This document shows, in pieces, positions 40,349 to 46,117 of a stretch of DNA of 64,000 nt (its first letter is position 1; each line of letters starts with the position of its first letter). The translations under genes and the position numbers were made by a program. The stretch spans positions 992,001 through 1,056,000 of the forward strand of contig NZ_AP012978.1 of assembly GCF_000801295.1 (NCBI RefSeq). Reading direction: 5' to 3'. Below the pieces are notes generated by a model. It was not told the DNA's origin, did no database searches, and saw only the letters and a list, made by a program, of their open reading frames with translations. The stretch comes from an endosymbiont of unidentified scaly snail isolate Monju (lineage in GTDB: Bacteria; Pseudomonadota; Gammaproteobacteria; Chromatiales; Chromatiaceae).

Positions 40349-40488
40349 GGGTGGTCCCCGTGGGTGCGAATGGCGCGGATTATACCGCCGGACCGGGGCT
40401 TTGCATTGTTTCACGCGACGATGGACAATGCGGCCGGGGGGTGACCAGGCCGGAACTTCCATCGTCCTTGCGAGGGGTGAGCACGTCG

Positions 40489-42471
40489 ATGTCAGCGCAG
40501 TCTGAAACCCAGGATCCCCGCTCCCGGTCGATCGATCGCAAGCAGGCGGTCGCGGCCCTGGTGTTTCTGCTCACCGCCCTCGGCCTGGTACCGATCGTGC
40601 CCAGCGTGGAGATTGCCTGGGTGAGCGCCATCCTGCTGTTCACCATCTACCTGTTCGCCTTCGAGGTGGTGAGCGTGGACGTGGCCGCGGTGCTGGTGAT
40701 GGTGCTGCTGGGGCTGACCTCGCTGGCCGCGCCCTTCATGGGGTTGAGCGAAGGGCTGGTGGACAACAAGCACCTGTTCGACGGTTTCGCCTCGAACGCG
40801 GTGATCTCCATCATCGCGGTGATGATCATCGGCGCGGGCCTGGACAAGACCGGGGTGATGACCAAGGTGGCCGCCTTGATCCTGCGTATCGGCGGCAAGA
40901 CCGAGGCGCGCATCATTCCCATCATCTCGGGCACCGTGGCCTTCATCTCCTCGTTCATGCAGAACGTGGGGGCGGCGGCGCTGTTCCTGCCGGTGGTTTC
41001 GCGCATCTCGGCGCGTTCCGGCCTGCCCATGTCGCGCCTGCTGATGCCCATGGGCTTCTGTGCCATTCTCGGCGGCACCGTGAGTATGGTCGGCTCCAGC
41101 CCGCTGATCCTGCTCAACGACCTGATCCTCACCTCCAACCAGGCTCTGCCACCGGATCGGCAGATGCAGGCCTGGGGCCTGTTCTCGGTGACGCCGGTCG
41201 GCGTGGCCCTGGTGCTGACGGGCATCGTGTACTTCGTGATTGCCGGACGCTACGTGCTGCCGGTGACCGAGAGCGAGTCGAGCGCCACCGGCTCGGATAC
41301 CCTGGGCTATTTTCATGATGTCTATGGCGTGGACTACAGCCTCTCCGAGGTGGTTGTGCCTGACGACAGCCCGCTGGTGGGCAAGCAGCTCGACGACATC
41401 GAGACCGACTACCGGGTGCGCGTCATTGCCCACAAGCGTCCGGGCGGCGAGGTGAACTTCGGTCCCGGCACCCTGGCGCGCGATACCGAGATCATTGCCG
41501 GGATGGTACTGGGCATCGTCGCCGACCCCAGGGACCTGGACCACTTCGTCGACAAATACGGTCTGGAGCAGCGCGACCGCCTGCGTACCTTCGCCGAGGC
41601 CCTGTCGCCGCGCAAGTCGGGTATCGCCGAGGTGGTCATCCCGCCGGGCTCGAACCTGATCGGCAAGAGTGCGCGTGATGTCTGGATGCGCAAGACCTAC
41701 GGCCTGGCCATGGTCGGCCTGCACCGCAACGGCAAGACCCTGCGTGAGGGGGATGATATCCGCAACATGCCCTTCCAGGCCGGCGACACCCTGGTGGTAC
41801 ACACACCCTGGAACGTGCTCGAGCGCATCGAGAAGGACCGCAATTTCCTGGTGGTGACCACCGAGTATCCGCGCGAGGAGAAGCTGCGCCCGCACAAGGT
41901 GCGCTGGGCGGCGCTGTTCTTCTTCGTGGCGCTGAGCATGGTCCTGTTCACCGATATCCGCCTGTCGGTGGCGCTGCTCACCGGGGCGGTGGGCATGGTG
42001 CTCTCGGGGGTGCTCAAGATCGACGAGGCCTACCAGGCGGTGAGCTGGAAGACTATGTTCCTGCTCGCCTCGCTGATTCCACTGGGCCTGGCGGTGGAGA
42101 CCTCGGGCACCGCGCGCTGGATCGCCCAGGAGGTCGTCGGCCTGGTCGGCGATGCCGGGCCCTGGGTGATCCAGACGGCCATCGCCGCGCTGGCCACCTT
42201 TTTCACCCTGGTGATGTCCAACGTCGGCGCCACCGTGCTGCTGGTGCCGTTGGCGGTCAATATCGCCATCCAGGTGGATGCCGACCCGGCGGTCTACGCG
42301 CTCACCGTGGCGATCGCCACCTCCAATTCCTTCCTGATTCCCACTCACCAGGTCAATGCTCTCATCATGGGGCCGGCCGGCTACCGCGTACCCGACTTCA
42401 TGCGTGCCGGCGGCATCATGACGGTGCTGTTTCTGGTAGTGATGATGGTGATGATGAACCTGATGTTCTGA
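40489..42471 (+). CDS. SLC13/DASS-type permease with two RCK_C (TrkA-C) domains
   Basis: A 660-residue membrane transporter with two blocks of helices (about residues 10-260 and 465-660) separated by a soluble region with two RCK_C-like modules (YSLSEVVVPDDSPLVGKQL and IAEVVIPPGSNLIGKSARD). The architecture is that of bacterial SLC13-family permeases, some of which carry sulfate or dicarboxylates; substrate is not determined here. The motif FMQNVGAAALFLPV and the C-terminal VMSNVGATVLLVPLAVNIA are typical of the anion-binding SNT-type loops. ATG at 40489 or GTG at 40477 are possible starts. The gene ends before a strong hairpin. Confidence 0.87.
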   Translation: MSAQSETQDPRSRSIDRKQAVAALVFLLTALGLVPIVPSVEIAWVSAILLFTIYLFAFEVVSVDVAAVLVMVLLGLTSLAAPFMGLSEGLVDNKHLFDGFASNAVISIIAVMIIGAGLDKTGVMTKVAALILRIGGKTEARIIPIISGTVAFISSFMQNVGAAALFLPVVSRISARSGLPMSRLLMPMGFCAILGGTVSMVGSSPLILLNDLILTSNQALPPDRQMQAWGLFSVTPVGVALVLTGIVYFVIAGRYVLPVTESESSATGSDTLGYFHDVYGVDYSLSEVVVPDDSPLVGKQLDDIETDYRVRVIAHKRPGGEVNFGPGTLARDTEIIAGMVLGIVADPRDLDHFVDKYGLEQRDRLRTFAEALSPRKSGIAEVVIPPGSNLIGKSARDVWMRKTYGLAMVGLHRNGKTLREGDDIRNMPFQAGDTLVVHTPWNVLERIEKDRNFLVVTTEYPREEKLRPHKVRWAALFFFVALSMVLFTDIRLSVALLTGAVGMVLSGVLKIDEAYQAVSWKTMFLLASLIPLGLAVETSGTARWIAQEVVGLVGDAGPWVIQTAIAALATFFTLVMSNVGATVLLVPLAVNIAIQVDADPAVYALTVAIATSNSFLIPTHQVNALIMGPAGYRVPDFMRAGGIMTVLFLVVMMVMMNLMF

Positions 42472-42616: not shown

Positions 42617-43663
42617 TTAGCGCGCGAGCAGCGTTGGCACGTCCTGGATCCCCAGGCCCCGCTCGGCGAGGTGGTCGCGCAGGAAGCGCTCGCTCAGGGT
42701 CAGCACCTGGCGCAGTTCCTCTTCCTCGATTCCCAGGATCAGGTTGGCGACCACCTCGGGTGGCAGACCTTCCCGGTGGACCAGGGTGAGCGCACGCCGC
42801 CACAGCGAGGGCAGGGCACCCAGCAGTTCGTAACAGGCGTCGACGGCCTCGGCCTGGGCGGCTTCTTCCGGGCCGGGGATCTCGGTGTCGGCGATCAGGT
42901 CCTCGACATACAGGTCCTCGTCGGGCTGGTAGAACTCGCCGATCTCCTCCCCGACCATGTCCTCGGCCTGCTCCATGGCGTCTTCGGGGACTTCGTCTTC
43001 CAGCGAGACCAGTTGTTCATCCGCGTGCAGGCGCCGCGTCTCTTCCTCGAGGATTTCGGTGGTCACGCGGATCGCCACCCGGTACAGGCCCTCCTCGTCG
43101 TGCGGCACCTCGTCCCAGCGACGCTGGATGCGCACGTACATCTCGTCGCGCACGTCGGCCAGCGTGGGATAGTCGTCGGCCAGCAGGCCGTTGGCGCGCA
43201 AGTAGGTCAGCTCGTGGCGTAGCCAGGATTCGAGGCGTGGCAGCAGGCTGGCCAGCGAGACCTCGACCTGTTGCTGCGCCTCGGGCGTCAGCGCGTCCAG
43301 CCGGCTCTTGAGTTCGCGCAGGCGGCGCCGGCGGGCCTTGCGCTTCCAGTCGTGCTGGTGGCTGATGTGGGCGCGATGGCGTTCAGCCTGCCGCGCCAGC
43401 TCCTCCAGCGTGTTGTGCAGCGCCTTGTCCAGCAGAGGATCGCTGGACTGGGCGACCAGCACCTTGCGCGGCGGCAACTGGATGCGCGCGGTCACGCGGT
43501 GATCCAGCTTGCGTTTTTCCAGCGTCAGGCGCACGTGTGGCAAGGCATGCTCGAAGGCCTCCAGCGCGGGTTTCAGGTGGCGCTCGGCCAGGGTCTCCAC
43601 CGTGTGACGGACAGTCTCGTGGTTGTCCTTCGGCAGGTTGCGCCAGGTGATGTCGATTTTCAT
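42617..43663 (-). CDS. HPF/RaiA-like domain joined to a sigma-like region
   Basis: A 348-residue protein with two parts. Residues about 1-100 (KIDITWRNLPKDNHETVRHTV, then VRLTLEKRKLDHRVTARIQLP and DKALHNTLEELARQ) have the beta-alpha-beta-beta-beta-alpha pattern and polarity of HPF/RaiA ribosome hibernation factors. After a basic linker (WKRKARRRRLRELKSR), residues about 145-345 resemble an ECF sigma factor: a region-2-like helical part (DVRDEMYVRIQRRWDEV, GLYRVAIRVTTEILEEE), an acidic spacer, and a region-4-like helix-turn-helix (LPSLWRRALTLVHREGLPPEVV...). GGAGG precedes the ATG at 43663, which is 40 bp after a DsrC-like gene. Function unknown; it could link ribosome state to transcription (inference). 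Confidence 0.72.
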   Translation of the reverse strand: MKIDITWRNLPKDNHETVRHTVETLAERHLKPALEAFEHALPHVRLTLEKRKLDHRVTARIQLPPRKVLVAQSSDPLLDKALHNTLEELARQAERHRAHISHQHDWKRKARRRRLRELKSRLDALTPEAQQQVEVSLASLLPRLESWLRHELTYLRANGLLADDYPTLADVRDEMYVRIQRRWDEVPHDEEGLYRVAIRVTTEILEEETRRLHADEQLVSLEDEVPEDAMEQAEDMVGEEIGEFYQPDEDLYVEDLIADTEIPGPEEAAQAEAVDACYELLGALPSLWRRALTLVHREGLPPEVVANLILGIEEEELRQVLTLSERFLRDHLAERGLGIQDVPTLLAR

Positions 43664-43703
43664 GGCTGAATGCCTCCGTCGTGTTGTTGTCGTTGTGGGC
43701 GCA

Positions 43704-44234
43704 TCAGTAGGCTGTGCCGAAATGCGGGTCCACGTCGTGCCGCAGGCGGGGCAGGCCGGCGAGCAGGTGAATGGTGAATACCGGTCCGTAGGGGAACAGC
43801 TCGTAGAGGTGTTTCTTTCCTCCCTTGTCGGCAAAGGCCTTGAGCAGCACGCGATACACCCGGTAGGCGCTGGTGGCCTCGGTGGCGCTGAGCTGGCCAT
43901 ACTGGCAGGTTTCGGTCTTCTTGCCTTCCATCTCCGATTCGCACTGCGGGTCTTTCAGGCAGTCGATGTAGCGCCAGTAGGCACGCATGTCGGTGTAGCG
44001 TGGCGCGTGGGTCTCACAACAGTAAGTGTAGAAGTCGAGCAGAAAGTCAATGACTTCCCAGTGTGCCTCGGTCAACTCGATGCCGACTTCCTCGGCATTC
44101 TTGCGGATGCGATCGCGCAGTTCCTCGCGCGGGGTGTCGCGCACGATCTGTGCTGGCGGGAAGTCCGCCGGGGGCAGTACCACCGGAGCGAGTCGTGCCA
44201 GGATGCCCTCGAGTCTTTCGTCACCGGTGTTCAT
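43704..44234 (-). CDS. DsrC/TusE-family protein lacking the C-terminal cysteine (RspA-like)
   Basis: A 176-residue DsrC-related protein. The typical core is visible: RDTPREELRDRIRKNAEEVGIELTEAHWEVIDFLLDFY near residue 32-70, and LYELFPYGPVFTIHLLAGLP near 145, equivalent to the LYELFP...AGLP end of DsrC. In DsrC and TusE the chain ends a few residues later with a conserved cysteine; here it runs on as RLRHDVDPHFGTAY without one. A central insertion carries cysteines (YCCETHAP, CLKDPQCESEM, ETCQYG). DsrC-like proteins without the redox cysteine have been called RspA and proposed as regulators. GGAGG precedes the ATG. It is co-directional with the HPF/sigma-like gene. Confidence 0.75.
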   Translation of the reverse strand: MNTGDERLEGILARLAPVVLPPADFPPAQIVRDTPREELRDRIRKNAEEVGIELTEAHWEVIDFLLDFYTYCCETHAPRYTDMRAYWRYIDCLKDPQCESEMEGKKTETCQYGQLSATEATSAYRVYRVLLKAFADKGGKKHLYELFPYGPVFTIHLLAGLPRLRHDVDPHFGTAY

Positions 44235-44425
44235 GTCGGGTCCTCCATGCGTTTCGGTTTTCTTGTTCCGTCCTTCACAGTGAGGGCAGTCGGCAGCTTT
44301 TCAATGCAGGGTGAGGCCATCCGCATGGTATTGTCGTTTTCTCGCGGCGTGTCCTTGAAAGGCCGCTGGGCCGACGCCAATGAGAACGGTTCGTCCTTGC
44401 TGCTTGCACGATCTACCTTTGCCAG

Positions 44426-46117
44426 ATGACGCATGAACTGCTGTTTCACCTGATGTTGCTGCTGCTCGGCAGCGCCGGCCTGGTGGTCCTGTGCCATCGC
44501 CTGGTGCTGGCCGGGCTGGCGTTCGGCCCCTGGGGTCTGGGCCAGCTGGGCGATGCCGGAGCGATCCGCGTGCTGGCCGAGGTCGGTGTGGTGCTGCTGA
44601 TGTTCACCATCGGCCTGGAGTTCTCCCTGCCGCGTCTGCTCGCCGCGCGGCGCCTGGTGCTGGGGCTGGGTGGAAGCCAGGTGGCCCTCACCACCGCGGT
44701 GTTCGCCGGCGGCTTCATTCTTGCTGGGGTGTCGCCGGCCTTTGCGGTGATCCTGGGCGGCGCCTTCGCCATGTCCTCGACCGCCATCGCGCTCAAGCAG
44801 CTCGGTGAGCAGGGGGAGCTGCGCACCGTGCACGGTCAGGCCGCCACGGCGGTGCTGCTGTTCCAGGACATCGCCGCGGTGCCCTTTCTGGTACTGCTGC
44901 CGCTGCTGGGGAATGATGGCGGCTCCTTCGGCAGCCCGCTGGGCATCACCCTGGTCAAGGCCCTGCTGGTATTCGTTACGCTGGCGGTGCTGGGGCGCAA
45001 GCTGTTGCCGCGCATTCTGCACTGGGTGGCCGATACCCACTCGCTCGAGCTGTTCATGCTGACGGTGCTGTCGCTGGCACTGGCGGCGGCGGACCTGTCC
45101 ATGGTCGCCGGCCTGTCGGCCACCCTGGGTGCCTTCATGGCCGGCATGCTGCTGGGCGAGACGCATTTCCGGCATCAGGTGGAGGCCGATATCCGACCCT
45201 TCCGCGATCTCATGCTGGGGGTGTTCTTCATCAGTATCGGCATGCAGCTCGATCCGGGCATCCTGCTGCGCCAGCCCCTGTGGGTGCTGGCGGTGGTGAC
45301 CGGGTTGGTACTGCTCAAGGGGCTGTTGATCTGGGTGCTGGTCCGGCTGTTCGGGCATGCGTCTGACGATGCGCTGCGGGTCGCGGCAGTGCTGGCACAT
45401 GGTGGCGAGTTCGGCCTGTTGCTGGTTTCTCAGGTGATGCTGCTGGCGTTGGTGGACAGCGTGCTGCTGCAACCGGTGCTGGCGGGACTGATCCTCAGTA
45501 TGCTGCTCGCGCCCTTGCTGATCCGTTTCAACGGCCGTCTGGTCAGGCGTCGCGGCAGCGCCTATCTCCCGGGCGAGCCGGAAAATCTGCCGGAGAGGGT
45601 GGGCGAACTGCACGATCACGCGGTGATCTGCGGCTACGGCGCGCTGGGGCAGGGTGTGGCCGCGGTGCTCGAGGAGCGCAACGTGCCGGTACTGGCGATC
45701 GACCGCGATGCCCGCCTTGTGCGCGAATGCCGCGCCAACGGGCATGCAGTGCTGTTCGGGGATGCCGGCAACGCGGTCCTGCTCGAGCTGGCGAGACTGC
45801 CGCAGGCGCGGGCCTTGGCGATCACCTTCCATGATCCGCCGGCGGCGCGGCGCATCATCGCCCAGGCACGGCGCCTGCGGCCCGGGCTGCCGATACTGGT
45901 GCATACCGAGCACGGCTGGACGGGCGACGAGGAGCGCCTGCCGCCGAATGTGACCATCTTCGATTCGGTGCTCGAGAGCAGCCTGATGTATGCCCGCGCC
46001 TTGCTGCTGCTGGCGGGTGTGGACGATCAGAGCAGCGAGCGCGCGGTGGCCGAGGTGCGCGCCAGCGACTATTCCGTGTTGCGCCAGGCCGAGCCGGAAG
46101 ACGATCATGCGCTATGA
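44426..46117 (+). CDS. CPA2-family cation:proton antiporter with TrkA-N domain
   Basis: A 563-residue KefB/KefC-type antiporter. The first 380 residues contain about 12 membrane helices with FTIGLEFSLPRL and AFAMSSTAIALKQL typical of the CPA2 family. A NAD-binding TrkA-N domain follows (AVICGYGALGQGVAAVLEERNVPVLAIDRD, near residue 395), then a C-terminal tail that gates the channel. The N-terminus is short: HRLVLAGLAFGPWG lacks about eight residues usually present before LAGLAFGPWG, an in-frame loss or variant. It likely exchanges K+ or Na+ for H+. rluA starts inside its last codons. Confidence 0.9.
   Translation: MTHELLFHLMLLLLGSAGLVVLCHRLVLAGLAFGPWGLGQLGDAGAIRVLAEVGVVLLMFTIGLEFSLPRLLAARRLVLGLGGSQVALTTAVFAGGFILAGVSPAFAVILGGAFAMSSTAIALKQLGEQGELRTVHGQAATAVLLFQDIAAVPFLVLLPLLGNDGGSFGSPLGITLVKALLVFVTLAVLGRKLLPRILHWVADTHSLELFMLTVLSLALAAADLSMVAGLSATLGAFMAGMLLGETHFRHQVEADIRPFRDLMLGVFFISIGMQLDPGILLRQPLWVLAVVTGLVLLKGLLIWVLVRLFGHASDDALRVAAVLAHGGEFGLLLVSQVMLLALVDSVLLQPVLAGLILSMLLAPLLIRFNGRLVRRRGSAYLPGEPENLPERVGELHDHAVICGYGALGQGVAAVLEERNVPVLAIDRDARLVRECRANGHAVLFGDAGNAVLLELARLPQARALAITFHDPPAARRIIAQARRLRPGLPILVHTEHGWTGDEERLPPNVTIFDSVLESSLMYARALLLLAGVDDQSSERAVAEVRASDYSVLRQAEPEDDHAL

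Follow-up and report, generated by a model that had tools for sequence, protein, structure and literature searches.

A fusion of an HPF domain with a predicted sigma-like module, from the tLST Orf11 family, and its linkage to a cysteine-less DsrC-like protein

The window analyzed here, 64,000 nt of the single-contig, 2.6-Mb genome of a scaly-snail endosymbiont (G000:C1:992001-1056000), carries on its minus strand a two-gene unit, in which the gene of a long DsrC-fold protein, here called DsrC-long, is followed 40 nt downstream by the gene of a protein that joins an HPF/RaiA domain to a module resembling a sigma factor of the extracytoplasmic function (ECF) type. By sequence homology, this fusion belongs to a family already in print as orf11 of the transmissible locus of stress tolerance (tLST); its sigma half keeps the fold, but the contact signature for the promoter is lost. 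We tentatively read the fusion as a stress regulator that would couple idle ribosomes to transcription by sigma mimicry, with DsrC-long as a lineage-specific partner, and our confidence in this reading is a little short of even. A first-pass annotation of the window had described a DsrC/TusE-type protein without a C-terminal cysteine lying 40 bp upstream of an HPF/sigma-like fusion, and had proposed that the pair connects sulfur-carrier state, ribosome hibernation, and transcription; the observation is confirmed, and the interpretation is partly supported.

Domain organization and predicted fold of the fusion protein

The AlphaFold2 (AF2) model of the fusion protein (P0001; pLDDT 80.7, pTM 0.59) contains two known folds. 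Residues 1 to 100 match the HPF fold of 4hei_A with a Z score of 15.0 (root mean square deviation [rmsd] 1.5 over 92 residues), and residues 127 to 340 match a whole ECF sigma factor, 5uxx_C (RpoE with NepR), with a Z score of 14.2 (rmsd 3.6 over 154 residues), weaker matches of the same half being SigW (Z 11.4) and the sigma-like domain of PhyR with NepR (2lfw, Z 11.0). By fold match, the presence of sigma2 and sigma4 without sigma3, a feature of ECF sigmas, extends to the fusion. Both halves had been recognized in the first-pass annotation, as an N terminus like HPF/RaiA and a C terminus like ECF sigma regions 2 and 4, and the structure prediction that it proposed as a check recovered both folds.

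Taken alone, the protein has weak Pfam support: S30AE reaches 21.9 bits, under its cutoff of 23.7 (25.3, over the cutoff, in the genome search), no Pfam sigma family is found at an E value of ≤1, and a SigZ match (E 0.0089) lies far under its cutoff. The HPF and sigma identity is nevertheless settled by the matches obtained across the family. In particular, Pfam searches with 24 aligned fusion members (E ≤ 0.1) gave S30AE in 24/24, Sigma70_r4_2 in 14/24, and PhyR_sigma-like in 11/24, while a 47-member profile retrieved from the PDB sequences 59 distinct entries at E ≤ 0.01, by name all of HPF type or sigma/PhyR type, with AlgU (3.8e-11) and HPF (8.2e-7) as the best of each. Thus, the fusion is modeled as an HPF/RaiA domain and a closed sigma2-sigma4 ECF fold, joined by a basic helix whose mean net charge is +5.9 over residues 101 to 126 in 49 fusions. 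The linker between the two sigma-like domains is acidic (mean net charge of -13.3 over residues 217 to 262 in the same 49) and has a pLDDT below 50 for residues 217 to 247.

A chance or miscalled reading frame is ruled out by the full-length conservation of the family in many genomes, and two genes misread as one are ruled out because the 47 aligned members, which come from several classes and from many assemblies, each have a single open frame. As for an anti-phage system, neither the fusion nor DsrC-long has a PADLOC match at E ≤ 0.001. A canonical HPF is encoded separately in the host genome (107.5 bits).

Identity with tLST Orf11 and spread of the family

The family is found on plasmids, where P0001 has matches at E ≤ 0.01 in 302 of 72,556 records, in 273 of them with a coverage of at least 80%; the hosts are mostly Klebsiella (127) and Enterobacter (74) and also include Acinetobacter and Escherichia coli. 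The E. coli plasmid NZ_CP061755.1 encodes a homologue, annotated as "hypothetical protein," that is 34.5% identical to P0001 over 97% of the latter; it is flanked by hdeD-GI and trx-GI, and a cation:proton antiporter follows. This arrangement matches the order hdeD, orf11, trx, kefB published for the tLST (PMC8290217) and identifies the homologue as tLST Orf11. The corresponding orders are DUF308 gene, homologue, trx-GI in P. fragi and yfdX2, hdeD-GI, homologue in A. lwoffii. For the Methylobacillus flagellatus island, PMC8290217 mentions a "sigma 24 like" gene, a candidate for membership in the family.

With E. coli Orf11, Pfam gives a weak Sigma70_r4_2 match (E 0.0022), and S30AE is not detected at E ≤ 0.05. 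Profile A1, which contains no plasmid member, covers Orf11 residues 1 to 349 with 273.7 bits, its N-terminal part alone covers residues 1 to 106 with 51.9 bits, and an Orf11-clade profile, made from three Orf11 proteins and two close relatives, retrieves from the PDB first HPF (1.9e-5) and then, weakly, sigma chains (0.023 and up). On the basis of full-length homology and of the HPF-sigma-like layout, we assign the fusion to the tLST Orf11 family. It follows that the first-pass statement that no such system had been described holds in one respect and fails in another: the gene family is in print, and in the accessible portions of the papers concerned its function is not known (PMC8290217, PMC8407380) or the gene is called hypothetical (PMC5383660). 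Literature searches among open-access papers listed none that describes an HPF-sigma fusion by title or abstract, subscription papers and protein-database domain listings lying outside that search, and the main text of a 2026 survey of domains fused to HPF in bacteria (PMC13324472) mentions no sigma fusion, its two occurrences of "sigma" both belonging to a supplier's name.

The tLST, also named LHR or TLPQC, has dna, shsp20, and clpK/clpG as core genes (PMC7685784). Like it, the window locus has a near-full-length homologue with a KefB-type gene nearby; unlike it, the window locus is chromosomal, includes DsrC-long, and shows no match to the products of the core genes shsp20 and clpK/clpG within 6.5 kb of the fusion, where KefB was matched and Hsp20, ClpK, YfdX, HdeD, and Trx were not (dna was not among the queries).

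In the genome samples, many of which are drafts, full-length or nearly full-length homologues occur in 22 of the 210 genomes of the order, belonging to 7 of 61 genera. In the class, at least 16 of 369 genomes carry one (17 places, one of them cut by a contig end; E 5.5e-74 or better), a lower bound because at most five candidates were scored per genome. Among the class matches listed, the next best has an E value of 1.8e-15 and covers one part only, and the weaker ones fall mostly on the two profile ends separately (about 1 to 115 and 245 to 345), the pattern that separate HPF genes and ECF genes should produce; six stand-alone ECF-type matches were checked by sequence. Across the phylum, 5 of 398 genomes match at 1e-25, with both halves present in three (the window's, G732, and G896), while the L134 match reaches the end of its stretch and L135 is a stand-alone sigma-like protein. 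Three further homologues (L035 to L037) come from metagenome bins titled Blastocatellia (one) and Nitrospirae (two), their phyla being given as in the record titles. The window protein is 90% identical to its counterpart in "Chromatiaceae bacterium isolate CTD079," to which the window organism is close. Two fusion copies occur on different contigs of G572 (L106 and L107), one of them in the run DsrC-long, DnaK, YfdX, fusion.

Loss of the contact signature in the sigma-like half

For the residues that contact DNA and polymerase, the alignment comprised 49 fusions and, as a comparison set, 35 ordinary ECF sigmas, of which 29 belong to the same genus and 6 to the class. The Gln of region 2.2, which contacts the polymerase clamp, is present in 34/35 ECF sigmas and is replaced by Asp in 49/49 fusions. 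The mean charge of the sigma2.3/2.4 helix, which makes the -10 contacts, is +3.9 in the ECF sigmas versus -0.8 in the fusions, that of the sigma4 recognition helix is +3.9 versus -1.2, and an Arg at position 325 is found in 28/35 ECF sigmas versus 6/49 fusions. The residues that keep the fold (LPxxWR) are retained, with Arg289 in 49/49 and Trp288 in 48/49 fusions. By this comparison, the sigma half keeps its fold and appears to have lost the contact signature for the promoter; with the region 2.2 Gln replaced, contact with core polymerase would be lost as well. The link to transcription proposed in the first-pass annotation thus retains the ECF-sigma fold in its favor and has the lost contact residues against it. 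We reject an ordinary active ECF sigma on account of the altered signature (Gln to Asp, both helices on average no longer basic), and a PhyR-like sigma mimic seems likelier than an active sigma.

In PhyR, which belongs to the general stress response of Alphaproteobacteria, the sigma2-sigma4-like module binds the anti-sigma factor NepR and not promoters (PMC4598750). The fusion has a comparable module, as indicated by the 2lfw and PhyR_sigma-like matches, but its second domain is HPF, whereas that of PhyR is a receiver; hence it may work like PhyR, yet it is not PhyR. No NepR gene was identified beside the fusion, although no search with a NepR profile was made.

Directly downstream of the fusion, in 3/3 loci from the records titled Nitrospirae or Blastocatellia, a gene of 85 to 95 amino acids (aa) contains HxxxCxxC, which we take to be the zinc anti-sigma motif; the same pattern occurs in 24 of 3,864 control stretches of 60 to 200 aa. 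One of the three small genes matches zf-HC2 with an E value of 0.0049, under the cutoff. A fourth HxxxCxxC match (L084) lies deeper and in another frame.

These neighbors are among the reasons for considering that the fusion could be a genuine ECF sigma with unusual promoter or core contacts, kept on ribosomes by HPF and freed on stress to transcribe the island. The whole ECF fold also favors this explanation, together with the Sigma70_r4_2 matches over the Pfam cutoff in L035 and L036 (31.4 and 34.2 bits) and the public record names of some homologues ("sigma-70 family RNA polymerase sigma factor," "RNA polymerase subunit sigma-28," and "flagellar biosynthesis protein FliA"). We consider it unlikely in view of the substitution of the signature Gln in every fusion and of -10 and recognition helices that are on average not basic, to which it can be added that the aligned upstream regions of five DsrC-long genes revealed, by eye, no motif common to all.

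Improbable to us, too, is the explanation that the protein is a hibernation factor whose sigma-shaped module was exapted as a purely ribosomal appendage, one that would leave transcription untouched and might serve, for example, dimerization or protection, as the C-terminal domain of long HPF does. It would agree with the HPF fold being the best-matched part, with the loss of the DNA-contact residues, and with the example of archaeal HibA, an HPF-CBS fusion in which an HPF domain is joined to another module on the ribosome (PMC13324472, main text). Compared with both HPF/RaiA and HibA, the distinctive feature of the fusion is that the joined module is sigma-like; moreover, the retained LPxxWR motif, the closed two-domain fold, the existence of a sigma-like copy without HPF (L135), and the anti-sigma-like neighbors in three loci speak against a mere appendage. 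The L135 protein itself, from G662, has a linker motif (E-YQPDE) similar to that of the fusions and possibly represents the unfused ancestor type.

A bridge, with HPF on the 30S subunit and the sigma half on polymerase, parking both under stress as a hibernating expressome, would suit the architecture and the long, acidic, flexible sigma2-sigma4 linker; we rate it as very unlikely, considering that the Gln that contacts the polymerase clamp is replaced in the alignment.

The linked DsrC-like protein

DsrC-long scores 44.6 bits with Pfam DsrC, against a cutoff of 24.9, and DsrC structures are the top 7 of the 13 matches of its AF2 model (pLDDT 81.7), with a best Z score of 6.1, which is low. 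Despite this low score, a DsrC fold is predicted, the nearest structures all being DsrC. The protein shares fold and Pfam family with DsrC/TusE but differs in its ~40-residue, Cys-bearing insertion and in its C terminus, FGTAY/F, without Cys. In the window copy, which ends in ...LPRLRHDVDPHFGTAY, neither C-terminal Cys is present, and the C-terminal redox Cys is absent in 9/9 members (alignment A3). Cys72 and Cys110 are found in 9/9 members and Cys92 and Cys98 in 8/9, with Cys72 just before the insertion and the other three inside it; a four-Cys metal site can be considered as a candidate, although the G163 copy (L071) has just two of the four. Cysteine-less paralogues in the DsrC/TusE family are known as RspA.

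Full-length DsrC-long was detected in 6/210 order genomes and 7/369 class genomes, 12 different genomes in all, and the fusion is present in 12/12. The co-occurrence amounts to 7/7 in the class (hypergeometric 6.6e-11) and 6/6 in the order (6.7e-7), values uncorrected for kinship. In seven genomes (G000, G060, G061, G064, G035, G446, and G332), which represent three genera and two families (f1 and f124), the DsrC-long gene immediately precedes the fusion gene, so that the pairing, whose conservation the first-pass annotation had asked to be verified, extends beyond the window organism. In G572, DsrC-long is on the same strand as the fusion, with DnaK (by sequence) and YfdX (by Pfam) between them, and in G163, G289, G371, and G480 it lies on another contig or far from the fusion, although adjacency in G371 is not judgeable, since DsrC-long and the fusion lie near two different contig ends, at distances of 348 nt and 449 nt, respectively. 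Proteins of G164, G167, G168, G170, and G173 (one genus), which correspond to the C-terminal third only (48 to 54% identity) and are short relatives of L007 (see below), were not counted; G170 showed no fusion in the order search.

In the tree of the fusions, from which the cut gene of G332 was left out, the members of adjacent pairs group in two clades that are well supported and separate from each other. Furthermore, a different, 116-aa DsrC protein without the C-terminal Cys (Pfam 104.3 and 101.2 bits) is encoded in G042 and G273, in a third clade, 92 nt and ~600 nt upstream of the fusion, respectively. The DsrC-long gene is tightly linked to the fusion, and chance would hardly account for two DsrC types recurring beside a single rare family.

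That the DsrC-like protein reports a sulfur-carrier (persulfide or trisulfide) state to the fusion, as the first-pass annotation implied, is hardly credible: adjacency and co-occurrence of the pair and a canonical two-cysteine DsrC elsewhere in the host (L004) would fit, but both C-terminal redox Cys are missing, no DsrC gene was found within 6.5 kb, contig ends allowing, in 31/41 fusion regions, and homologues reside on plasmids of Klebsiella, Enterobacter, Acinetobacter, and E. coli, which are not known as sulfur oxidizers. We reject a sulfur-carrier role of DsrC-long itself on account of the missing C-terminal Cys; the protein may have a redox role of another kind, through the internal Cys.

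Five more DsrC-family genes are present in the host genome (L004 to L008). L004 is canonical, with both C-terminal Cys, L008 is TusE-like, with the terminal Cys, and L005, L006, and L007 have no terminal Cys, the FGSVH end of L007 resembling the FGTAY end of DsrC-long. In L071, DsrC-long is divergent from an antiporter gene resembling the KefB-type gene of the window, and no fusion was seen in the 448 nt downstream of it, up to the contig end.

Neighboring genes across fusion loci

With tLST and chaperone proteins as queries, 41 fusion regions (at most 6.5 kb per side, 384 kb) were compared with 40 control regions (14 kb, 560 kb) from three of the genomes. At least one stress gene was nearby in 17/41 fusion versus 3/40 control regions (Fisher P = 5.8e-4, uncorrected for kinship), bearing in mind the relatedness of the genomes behind several fusion loci and the truncation of many regions at contig ends. 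The matches in the fusion regions were Hsp20 (7), KefB (6), FtsH (5), YfdX (4), CbpA, CbpM, Trx, and HtpX (3 each), and DnaK and DegP (1 each); those in the controls were KefB (2) and one region with CbpA, CbpM, DegP, FtsH, and HtpX. The FtsH matches include genes of 631 to 651 aa in L108, L110, and L114, and DnaK was matched in L106 only, whose DnaK served as the query. The plasmid islands around the homologues carry Hsp20, ClpK, FtsH, YfdX, HdeD, Trx, and KefB; on plasmids of Caulobacter, Sphingomonas, Roseomonas, and Paraburkholderia, the neighbors include Hsp20, FtsH, an AAA ATPase, HdeD, or YfdX, while the Cupriavidus record has no annotation.

Two side observations concern these regions. 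A small gene lies directly upstream of the fusion and behind an Hsp20 gene in L112 (6806 to 7069), where Pfam identifies it as a zf-CHCC zinc finger, and in L114 (9035 to 9310), where the copy is 52% identical to that of L112. A thioredoxin-plus-HEAT-repeat protein is encoded downstream of the fusion in L100 (6308 to 6952) and L103 (8814 to 9470), two genomes of different clades.

Proposed mechanism

It is possible to hypothesize that proteotoxic or oxidative stress brings the HPF domain into the mRNA/tRNA channel of empty 30S subunits, where bacterial HPF and archaeal HibA also dock, and that the sigma-shaped module acts as a decoy, not as a working sigma, by binding a partner of sigma factors, which may be an anti-sigma factor (as in PhyR-NepR) or part of RNA polymerase. 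In this way, a stress regulon to which the neighboring chaperone, protease, and redox genes belong would change its output with ribosome occupancy. DsrC-long would serve the fusion as a protein partner specific to certain lineages and might sense redox state or metal via the inserted Cys. Partner binding, ribosome binding, and the direction of regulation are the steps that we infer.

Several points weigh against this regulator hypothesis. The strongest, as far as a simple activator of the island is concerned, comes from genetics: of 13 deletions in E. coli MG1655 lacZ::LHR, 7 are reported to reduce the resistance to heat or chlorine, that of orf11 not being one of them, and lipid oxidation was unchanged when orf11 was deleted (PMC8407380). 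The gene is also disrupted in LHR2 (PMC5383660), so that orf11 is dispensable for these E. coli phenotypes. The binding of the fusion to ribosomes is assumed from the predicted HPF fold. No listed stress gene is near 24/41 fusions, among them 8/9 of genus g51, the anti-sigma-like gene was seen in three nonproteobacterial loci only, and the window yielded no cognate anti-sigma. Finally, some members may still bind DNA, because six retain Arg325, the most basic recognition helix among the fusions has a charge of +4, and the sigma4 cutoff is passed in the Nitrospirae/Blastocatellia forms L035 and L036.

Should the regulator hypothesis be right, the fraction of empty ribosomes would directly set the transcription of proteostasis and redox genes, which amounts to a proposed direct wire between ribosome hibernation and transcription, stress outputs that are usually studied apart. 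A non-sulfur role would be proposed for DsrC-fold proteins. The family assignment, for its part, offers a structural identity for orf11, which belongs to a mobile island conferring protection against heat and chlorine on E. coli, Klebsiella, and others. More doubtful in our estimation, though still to be taken seriously, is the wider proposal of a new class of stress regulators, in which an HPF that binds idle ribosomes would control a sigma mimic or polymerase tether, mobile as tLST orf11 and with a DsrC partner in some relatives of sulfur bacteria.

Layout of the locus in the window

The coordinates of the locus, in which the reading frames of both genes agree with those of the first-pass annotation, are collected in Table 1. 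The antiporter reaches 155.6 bits with Pfam Na_H_Exchanger, over the cutoff, and 334.9 bits with NCBIfam KefB, under the cutoff of 804.

Table 1. Features of the DsrC-long/fusion locus, in window coordinates
Feature	Coordinates	Strand	Basis
DsrC-long, predicted DsrC fold, 176 aa, no C-terminal Cys, ~40-residue insertion	43704..44234	-	Pfam, AF2, alignment
HPF-sigma-like fusion, 348 aa from ATG at 43663, tLST Orf11 family	42617..43663	-	Profiles, AF2
HPF/RaiA domain of the fusion, residues 1-101	43361..43663	-	AF2 fold match, S30AE profile
Very basic helix, residues 102-126, WKRKARRRRLREL	43286..43360	-	AF2, alignment
Sigma2-like helices, residues 127-217, invariant Asp173 (Gln in ECF sigmas)	43013..43285	-	AF2, alignment
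Acidic, mostly disordered linker, residues 218-262, family motif EFYQPDE..xxEDLI	42878..43012	-	AF2, charge
Sigma4-like helix-turn-helix, residues 263-336, LPxxWR motif	42656..42877	-	Fold match, profiles, alignment
GGAGG, ribosome-binding-site-like, before DsrC-long gene	44242..44246	-	Read from sequence
GGAGG, ribosome-binding-site-like, before fusion gene, inside 40-nt gap	43673..43677	-	Read from sequence
KefB/KefC-type CPA2 antiporter, divergent from the pair	44426..46117	+	Pfam, NCBIfam

On the other side of the pair, a CitMHS/DASS-type transporter with TrkA_C domains is encoded at positions 40351 to 42471 of the window, convergent with the fusion gene.

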